Shown here: in pieces, positions 5,619-20,010 of the stretch
Position numbering within the stretch: the first letter of the stretch is position 1
Layout: every line of letters begins with the position of its first letter
DNA from: an uncultured Caryophanales bacterium
GTDB taxonomy: Bacteria > Bacillota_I > Bacilli_A > RFN20 > CAG-449
Reading direction: 5' to 3'
Assembly (NCBI GenBank): GCA_945873815.1
Contig: CAMCEE010000001.1
Span: forward strand, 139,897 to 203,896
DNA length: 64,000 bases
The notes under the pieces: generated by a model
The model's database searches: none
The model's input: the letters and a program-made list of their open reading frames with translations, nothing else
What the model was told of the DNA's origin: nothing
Program-made: the position numbers and the translations under genes

Positions 5619-5635
5619 TTAATTTTAAAGCTCCA

Positions 5636-5765
5636 ATATACCATAGACAGCAACGGTCAAGGGACTTAATAATGTTGCCGAGGTAACTATTTCACATAAA
5701 TTTTAAGTAAAACGTGATAGGAAAACTCTGTATATTGTTGCCTATACAAAACTAACAAACAACAA
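5636..5765 (+). promoter_or_regulatory. L10 (rplJL) ribosomal protein leader
   Basis: The leader contains ACCATAGACAGCAACGG and, after a loop, AATGTTGCCGAGGTAAC. This matches the conserved L10 leader pattern of Gram-positive rplJL mRNAs: AGACAGCA paired with TGTTGCCGAGGT around an internal kink-turn-like loop. The L10-(L12) complex binds this structure to repress its own synthesis. The strand CAGCAAC pairs with GTTGCCG. Confidence 0.85.
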
Positions 5766-18492: not shown

Positions 18493-18661
18493 GCATTATT
18501 TTATGTAGTCTAATAACTCTTGGACGATTATATCTTTGAATTATTACAAAAAATAAATCACATAGTGCTCCAAATATTGATGTAAGGATAAAGACTAAAG
18601 GTACACCATACCATATGATTAAAATACATGGGAGAAAAGATAGAATTATTTTTTTTGTAAT
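18464..18661 (-). other. Open frame continuing past the folT stop in the -1 frame
   Basis: Directly beyond the folT stop, a frame one base back is open for 61 codons from 18649 to a TGA at 18464-18466. It encodes a hydrophobic segment (LSFLPCILIIWYGVPLVFIL and on to FGALCDLFFVII) followed by a basic tail (QRYNRPRVIRLHKIMQKR). It has no ATG before the hydrophobic part. The switch point is an eight-A run in the mRNA (T8 on the + strand at 18649-18656), the kind of site where a -1 slip or an indel joins frames. It may be a frameshift extension of the folT product, the relic of a separate small membrane protein, or chance. Confidence 0.4.
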
Positions 18662-19875
18662 TCATTTTCTTGCATTATGTAATATGAATATTGAGATTTA
18701 TCGATTAATCCAATTTTTGATAGTGGTGGACAAAGGGCCTTTAATAATAAATACAAAACTAATGATTGAGGAACAAGATAGATAAGATTTTTTGGAAGCG
18801 AGAATATAAGTGCATAAGAATAAGTTTGTTCAAATGTATATCCTGAAACGATGCCCCAACATATGGAACCCCAAATGACATTTAGTATTATATTAACGAT
18901 TAATCTTGCGATAAAACATCTTGAATAAGAAATTTTTGTTTTATAGAGTAATAATCCATATACTAAGCCAGATAATGCAGCTTGAATTGTATATCCGATA
19001 AACCATGTATATGCAGTTTGAAATAATAAATATCCAATTGTATCAGATAGTATCCCTAATACAAAACCTGCGAATGGACCATAAATCATCGACGCGATAG
19101 CAAAAACAATATATGTTGCCGATATTCCAAGATTTCCAAATCCTGATGGCAATGATATAAGCTTACATAATAGCATCAAACTAAGCATCATCGCTAGTCC
19201 TGTTATTTTTCTAACATCTTTAAATGTCTTAAAGACATCTTTCCAATATTTTTTATGAAAAGGAGTAAAGAAGATACTATCGTTATCATATGGTATTTCT
19301 TCTAAATCCTTATTCTTTTTAAAGATAGTATAAGAAATAATAATATATATGCTAGTAAGTGAAATTGATGATATAGATGAAATAATATAAATCCATGAAT
19401 TAGATAGAGTAGTCTCTTTTTCAATGATATTACTATTTAAGAATAATATTCTTTTATTATTTTCTTCAGCGTATGTATTAAGCATTGTTTTAAGGAAAGT
19501 TTTTGCTCTAGTTGAGACGCTTGAACTACTTTTTAAGAAGAAATCAGGATAGTATGATACTTTTGTATATAGTGTATATTCTGTGTCATTCTTTAATATT
19601 GATATTCCTTTTTCCTTAACGATCTTATCAATGTTTATCTCATTGTAATATGTATTCTTACCATTGCATTTATCAACGATTTTAATAAGGTATTCTTTTG
19701 TTAACATTTCATTGAAAGAAAGTGAAGAATCATCTTCTATTTTAAAGCTAATACGATATGAACTAGTGTATGTATTAATCAAATTGGTTGTAGTAAATCC
19801 TAATAAAAACGATGAAACTAAAATGATGAGTAAGAGAAATTTACGTTTCAATAAATACTTAATAAACTTTTTCAT
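18646..19875 (-). CDS. folT: Folate ECF transporter S component fused to an N-terminal two-span module
   Basis: The C-terminal part (about residues 221-395 of 409) is a FolT-type ECF substrate-binding subunit. It shows LGISATYIVFAIASMIYGP, AGFVLGILSDTIGYLLF, AALSGLVYGLLLYK and NVIWGS, which follow the FolT family pattern. FolT normally has about 170-180 residues. Here about 215 residues precede it: a membrane span (13-30), an extracytoplasmic region of about 130 residues, a second span (161-185) and a linker. The ATG at 19875 was chosen because GGAGG lies ten bases upstream; the upstream in-frame ATG at 19908 lies in the riboswitch expression platform. A tetrahydrofolate riboswitch precedes the gene. 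The N-terminal module has the topology of chain-length determinant (Wzz-like) proteins, but homology is unproven. No EcfA or EcfT genes are in the window. Confidence 0.85.
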   Translation of the reverse strand: MKKFIKYLLKRKFLLLIILVSSFLLGFTTTNLINTYTSSYRISFKIEDDSSLSFNEMLTKEYLIKIVDKCNGKNTYYNEINIDKIVKEKGISILKNDTEYTLYTKVSYYPDFFLKSSSSVSTRAKTFLKTMLNTYAEENNKRILFLNSNIIEKETTLSNSWIYIISSISSISLTSIYIIISYTIFKKNKDLEEIPYDNDSIFFTPFHKKYWKDVFKTFKDVRKITGLAMMLSLMLLCKLISLPSGFGNLGISATYIVFAIASMIYGPFAGFVLGILSDTIGYLLFQTAYTWFIGYTIQAALSGLVYGLLLYKTKISYSRCFIARLIVNIILNVIWGSICWGIVSGYTFEQTYSYALIFSLPKNLIYLVPQSLVLYLLLKALCPPLSKIGLIDKSQYSYYIMQENELQKK

Positions 19876-19882
19876 TAAAAAA

Positions 19883-19903
19883 GACCTCCATACATTAGAG
19901 GTC
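19883..19903 (-). promoter_or_regulatory. Expression-platform hairpin of the THF riboswitch (terminator and RBS sequester)
   Basis: Arms GACCTC and GAGGTC on the minus strand close the hairpin, followed by six U and then AAUG. The 3' arm contains the GGAGG ribosome-binding site of folT. The sequence GCGGAC just before and overlapping the 5' arm can instead pair with GUCCGC in the 3' strand of the aptamer. Folate binding should therefore free the hairpin and switch expression off. Confidence 0.8.
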
Positions 19904-19919
19904 CGCATGCCTTAACAGT

Positions 19920-20010
19920 AACAGCGGACGCGTTAGAAAACCGCCACTACGTGTTCGTCCTTCTCTTTCTTCCTCAAAGAAGGCACTTAACGCTTTCTAA
20001 CTACTCTGTT
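19920..20010 (-). promoter_or_regulatory. Tetrahydrofolate (THF, class I) riboswitch aptamer
   Basis: On the minus strand the RNA has AGAGUAG, then GCGUUAAGUG, then GACGAAC, then GCGGU, then GUCCG. These are the conserved blocks of the THF riboswitch. The closing helix AACAG:CUGUU and the helix UUAGAAA:UUUCUAA both form while differing in sequence from the published examples. It lies 45 bases upstream of the FolT-fusion start, the usual partner of this class. Confidence 0.9.

Follow-up and report, generated by a model that had tools for sequence, protein, structure and literature searches.

The window, i.e., the 64,000-nucleotide stretch of contig CAMCEE010000001.1 analysed here, carries on its reverse strand the folate transport gene folT, preceded by a structured leader that combines a THF-I aptamer with a hairpin predicted to mask the ribosome-binding site of the gene. 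The features of this locus, in window coordinates, are the following.

19920 to 20010, reverse strand: THF-I riboswitch aptamer (RF01831) with P1 AACAG/CUGUU, P2, P3/L3 and P4 (cmscan)
19966 to 19976, reverse strand: apical loop L3 of P3, with U, G, A and A at crystal positions 34, 35, 42 and 44 (ungapped 27-nt comparison; numbering after an excerpt of PMC11477058)
19924 to 19929, reverse strand: GUCCGC, composed of J2/1 and the first base of the P1 3' strand, with L3 (putative pseudoknot) or GCGGAC (antisequestor) as partner (sequence; register in relatives; excerpt of PMC9881143)
19901 to 19906, reverse strand: GCGGAC, the antisequestor arm, part of which also belongs to the 5' arm of the hairpin (sequence, register, folding)
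19882 to 19904, reverse strand: 9-bp hairpin GGACCUCUA/UGGAGGUCU masking the ribosome site, -11.7 kcal/mol (folding and terminator scan)
19885 to 19889, reverse strand: GGAGG ribosome-binding site of folT (sequence)
19877 to 19882, reverse strand: tract of six U behind the hairpin, resembling an intrinsic terminator (sequence, spacer count, terminator scan)
19875 to 19873, reverse strand: AUG of folT (sequence)
18646 to 19875, reverse strand: folT, 409 aa, with an ECF folate S component at the C-terminus, preceded by an additional membrane domain at about residues 1-205 (TIGR04518, profile, predicted structure)

The gene downstream of the aptamer is identified as folT by its C-terminal part, since residues 219-380 match TIGR04518 with 69.8 bits against a cut-off of 60, and the family profile matches the solved FolT chains 4huq_S, 4z7f_A and 5d3m_C. 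The likeness to these S components is confined to residues 219-380; to them the window protein adds about 205 N-terminal residues (19875-19261, reverse strand), in which two predicted membrane helices surround an alpha/beta domain. Long forms (366-464 aa) account for 30 of the 146 THF-controlled ORFs, and long FolT relatives also occur in f1 g1/g2, f3 g10, f4 g35 and f27. A Pfam search with six of these N-terminal domains at E up to 10 gave weak and inconsistent matches and none for the window domain, and the A2 profile found nothing meaningful among PDB sequences (best E 0.038). The AF2 model of the window domain has a pLDDT of 89.9. Foldseek returned no match to it at or below 0.001, the best being Wzc at E 2.2e-3, while in the VIA comparison 9exq_B scored Z 8.6 with an rmsd of 8.2 over 181 aligned residues, the first 16 rows all being Wzc or KpsE and the next an unrelated protein at Z 7.4. 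The modelled domain is thus nearest to the Wzc/KpsE co-polymerases at modest scores. The long FolT, with a possible co-polymerase-like domain, is a separate lead on folate uptake. A 420-aa ORF starting at 19908 was considered as the gene and rejected, as its start lies inside the hairpin and the AUG properly spaced from the Shine-Dalgarno (SD) sequence is at 19875.

The importer seems to be physiologically needed, because neither the pterin-binding family of folP type (PF00809) nor GTP cyclohydrolase I (PF01227) has a match in this 96.5% complete genome, in which DHFR is present. The same searches in 14 control genomes recovered PF00809 in 13 and PF01227 in 11. The organism therefore probably relies on folate import.

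The earlier note had proposed a THF riboswitch, to be checked by an Infernal search, and this search bears the proposal out: 20010-19920 (reverse strand) matches RF01831 with 62.8 bits against a gathering score of 36 (E 7.5e-12), covers the model end to end (1-99 of 99) and is the single THF match in the whole genome (1.80 Mb). The leader resembles the crystallised THF-I aptamer (PDB 4LVV, 3SD1; excerpts of PMC11477058, PMC9881143 and PMC6614920) in the model match, stems P1-P4, the junction sequence, U7 and the complementarity of L3 to J2/1, a pseudoknot described for THF aptamers in the part of PMC9881143 consulted. Here this pairing, read from the sequence, sets GGAAG (19973-19969) against CGUCC (19930-19926) with four of five standard pairs, in a leader that precedes folT. 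The three-way junction looks intact in sequence. The claim that the aptamer landmarks are clear thus holds as far as stems, three-way junction and pseudoknot pairing are concerned, but fails for the ligand pocket in L3, which is altered. Accordingly, the leader is best classed as a THF-I variant with a predicted ligand response. THF matches were found in seven of the eight genomes of the genus, the exception being G006, in 17 of 18 of the family, 43 of 279 of the order, 120 of 395 in a draw from the class and 84 of 392 in an overlapping draw from the phylum. For the comparison of leaders 148 of 157 distinct THF-positives were used, nine weak or truncated ones being left out (G355, G552, G562, G358, G364, G385, G421, G427 and G339).

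Between aptamer and start codon lies the hairpin 19904-19882, whose 5' arm shares four bases with GCGGAC, which encloses GGAGG at 19889-19885 and which ends in U at 19882-19877, an arrangement that the earlier note had described correctly. The hairpin was found independently by a terminator scan, as the one hit in 2 kb against a shuffle mean of 0.5, and has the form of an intrinsic terminator by sequence, i.e., a G+C-bearing hairpin followed by a U-tract. Five U in the spacer between SD and AUG occur in one of the 33 window ORFs with GGAGG or AGGAG, namely folT. This makes it plausible that, as proposed, occupancy here would stop transcription and hide the ribosome site together, but the two effects are separable, as two sister genera have no U-tract. 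That the platform works on translation alone, with the hairpin masking GGAGG and the six U not acting as a functional terminator, is an unlikely reading but one with some weight: the SD hairpin comes without U5 in the sister genera g4 (0/3) and g2 (0/3), U5 is found in just 4 of 14 loci of f27, and in the window the U-tract abuts the AUG, leaving little space between stop site and gene. Against it stand the presence of U5 throughout the window genus (7/7), g3 (4/4), f3 (2/2), g35 (4/4) and f8 (1/1), its absence from the other 32 SD-bearing window ORFs and the recovery of the hairpin-U arrangement by the terminator scan. Because the U-tract is missing from g2 and g4, masking of the SD would be the common part of the mechanism, and termination is likely an add-on of some lineages, the window genus among them, as judged from these leader sequences.

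The alteration of the pocket concerns the site on which regulation is reported to depend. According to the part of PMC11477058 consulted, U7, U35 and U42 join the pterin of the pseudoknot site in a tetrad, and A8, A34 and G44 form a triple; in the excerpt of PMC9881143 the pseudoknot site is the sole site essential to THF regulation. A U-to-C change at the U7 position lowers the response to folinic acid, and loss of response can also accompany a minor change distant from the pocket (both from an excerpt of PMC6614920). The P3/L3 segment from AAGU to CGAA is 27 nt long in most relatives as well as in the window and was therefore compared ungapped, which places A34, U35, U42 and G44 of canonical loci at the published letters and spacing. 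In contrast to the crystallised aptamer, the window has G at 35 and A at 42, so that two of the three pterin-holding uridines are replaced, and U and A instead of A34 and G44, with which P3 can gain a pair; U7 is retained, whereas it too is changed in two of the seven THF loci of the window genus. These uridines belong to the binding site, and membership of the Rfam family RF01831 does not require them. With 35 and 42 changed in the L3 pocket, the pseudoknot site probably binds its ligand less tightly than that of the crystallised aptamer does, or with a different selectivity.

Similar changes recur among relatives. In a sample of 123 usable aptamers out of 164 (41 were set aside because the L3 segment was not 27 nt or J1/2 could not be parsed), U42 is present in 110, 109 of these with U7. 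Of the 13 remaining variants, 12 have A at position 42 and seven also A7, an association between positions 7 and 42 with a Fisher p of 1.8e-7, uncorrected for relatedness. Positions 34 and 44 form a standard pair in 11 of the 13 variants vs eight of the 110 others, 101 of which have A-G. Twelve of the 13 lack U at position 35, where 100 of the others have U, nine C and one A. A7/A42 is found in three families, each of which also has canonical members, and all seven loci of g3 and g4 have U at position 42. The window, because it retains U7, may represent an intermediate.

An improbable explanation of these changes is that ligand control of the aptamer has been lost, leaving the leader as a relic or constitutive element. 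Loss of U42 in all seven THF loci of the genus (A in each), of U35 in six and of U7 in two agrees with decay, as does the genus member without any THF match. Yet the genus has mostly retained the stems, junction, pseudoknot pairing, antisequestor and U-tract, and the variation is not random, given the preference for A at position 42 and the 34-44 pairing of the variants.

The pairing that would connect this aptamer to the hairpin is that of GUCCGC (19929-19924, reverse strand) with GCGGAC (19906-19901), which are fully complementary as claimed, at a spacing of 17 nt, one less than the 18 bases stated. To examine this pairing in relatives, the register was set blind to the complementarity of the hexamers, the upstream one (X) from its place in J2/1-P1 and the downstream one (Y) from the base opposite the SD hairpin. 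Of the 148 loci, seven without usable start or SD, 36 with another or unrecognisable J2/1 and eight with too short an SD hairpin match were removed, leaving 97 testable. All six pairs, G-U allowed, are formed in 75 of the 97, which span 12 clade labels, and with the register slid by -4, -3, -2, -1, 1, 2, 3 and 4 six pairs are formed in 0, 0, 0, 5, 0, 0, 0 and 0 loci, respectively. The hexamers include AUCCGC/GCGGAU, AUCCAC/GUGGAU and GUUCGC/GUGAAC, and at pair 1 G or A is matched by C or U, respectively (Fisher 1.6e-7, 97 loci, relatedness controlled roughly). The observed loci have 75 full matches and 440 Watson-Crick pairs, more than any of 5000 permutations in which Y was swapped among loci (at most 71 and 426, respectively). 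In a set of 37 loci with <80% aptamer identity (one per 80%-identity cluster), the Watson-Crick pairs (166) remain above the permutation maximum (165) and pair 1 stays associated (Fisher 0.009), while the full six-pair count of 27 is only weakly above the swaps (mean 23.0, maximum 28, a count of 27 reached in 50 of 5000), since there are few different hexamers and these are conserved. The 22 loci short of six pairs in the fixed register include several that seem mis-anchored or shifted by one, and others that are real breaks. In two genomes of f19 (G449 and G612), J2/1 UCC is changed to UUC alongside L3 GGA to GAA and the platform GGAC to GAAC, and in a third (G502) the L3 change is present with the platform unscored. 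This triple change, probably a single event, is what would be expected of a J2/1 that alternates between pseudoknot and antisequestor. Six complementary bases are in themselves no rarity in a short leader, and the GGACCUC part is constrained by the SD hairpin, but chance complementarity with no switching role is rejected as very improbable given the 75 loci in register, the 0-5 in slid registers and the compensatory changes. L3 was also considered as the antisequestor of the window leader and dropped, as the conserved helix there uses J2/1.

The folding energies are in line with an exchange between the two helices. In the window genome the antisequestor helix can be extended through UGUU/GGCA with one bulge, and the isolated alternatives are near equal, with -12.1 kcal/mol for this antisequestor stretch and -11.7 kcal/mol for the hairpin. 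Computed without pseudoknot and ligand, the antisequestor fold of a window transcript ending at GCGGAC is 6.5 kcal/mol better than the P1 fold, an advantage that falls to 1.2 kcal/mol once the hairpin is available. Across the 75 six-pair loci, again without pseudoknot and ligand, the antisequestor is favoured in all 75 before the SD arm is included and in 64 after it, with median advantages over P1 of 8.1 and 2.0 kcal/mol, respectively. These energies fit a default-ON switch in which the ligand would tip the decision. Conservation, compensatory changes and folding energies together give good support to the proposed design of antisequestor, masking hairpin and U-tract.

Taken together, we consider it about 80% probable that the leader is a THF-I-class riboswitch that switches folT OFF on aptamer occupancy by exchange of antisequestor and hairpin. 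Comparison and computation show the aptamer fold, the antisequestor, the hairpin, the U-tract and the FolT target, while folding order, ligand dependence and actual termination are inferred as follows. When no ligand is bound, the J2/1-P1 strand GUCCGC(UGUU) would pair with GCGGAC once this is transcribed, disrupting P1 and the L3:J2/1 pseudoknot and blocking the hairpin, so that RNA polymerase reads on and GGAGG is free. Upon ligand binding, L3 would hold J2/1, P1 would be stable and GCGGAC would be freed, allowing the GGACCUC/GAGGUC hairpin to mask GGAGG and, together with the six U, to terminate transcription right before the AUG. The reuse of a ligand-bound pseudoknot strand in an alternative helix is a likeness to the antiterminator/terminator platforms of other riboswitches, such as the fluoride switch (excerpt of PMC13273304). 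The window leader differs from these platforms in that J2/1 pairs in an antiterminator-like helix and that one hairpin, placed directly against the AUG, both masks the SD and carries the U-tract. The whole switch, beyond the aptamer, is now backed by compensatory changes.

Platform and aptamer are of known kind. No description of the recurring pocket change or of this platform was found in the literature searched, the primary THF reports, in which the platform or U42 variants may appear, being outside the scope of that search. Tentatively, the variants could form a sub-class of THF-I whose regulatory pocket has been rebuilt (A for U at position 42, often also at position 7, and an additional 34-44 pair) and that arose separately in three families, i.e., in the window genus, in part of f27, the family to which Anaeroplasma belongs, and in f16, kept the antisequestor platform, and senses another folate form or uses the three-way-junction site alone. 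Linked to this is the idea that, since J2/1 and L3 face each other in the same ligand-held pseudoknot, either may act as the switching strand, J2/1 in the window and L3 in f4/f2. The altered pocket raises the testable question of whether the THF-I pseudoknot site, reported as needed for regulation, can in nature be rebuilt or even done without.

Other THF leaders in the set are arranged differently. In f4 g13/g41/g45 and in f2 (L018-L022, L024-L027, L029, L031, L033-L037, L039 and L074), J2/1 usually reads CAGCCGC, and the anti-SD arm, ACCUCCC or GCCUCCC, is complementary to L3 GGGAGGU, with six to nine pairs in 18 of 19 loci, the 19th (G024) having a 6-base match away from any anti-SD arm; by eye, the C-run of several of these loci also matches the AUGGGG start region. 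L208 has tandem THF aptamers (708-801 and 829-922) before a long folT, the second at 36.2 bits barely above the gathering score. In L015 and L016 (f1 g2) a long folT again follows a THF-like leader, but one that lacks a matching P1, covers model positions 10-87 and, at about 31 bits, stays below the gathering score; the switch seems rearranged there. The ORF downstream of the aptamer in G565 is presumably FolC-like. A SAM riboswitch lies closely downstream of folT in 22 of 60 loci, titled Acholeplasmatales, Anaeroplasma and others (L160-L162, L168-L178, L180, L183, L187, L188, L196, L205, L207 and L208). The window itself contains two further leaders: a TPP riboswitch (61.0 bits; 37182-37075, reverse strand), followed by the ORF of a 185-aa membrane protein (37041-36484, reverse strand), which we take to be a ThiT-like S component, and an L10 leader (5623-5745, forward strand) before a 164-aa ORF that we assume to be rplJ.
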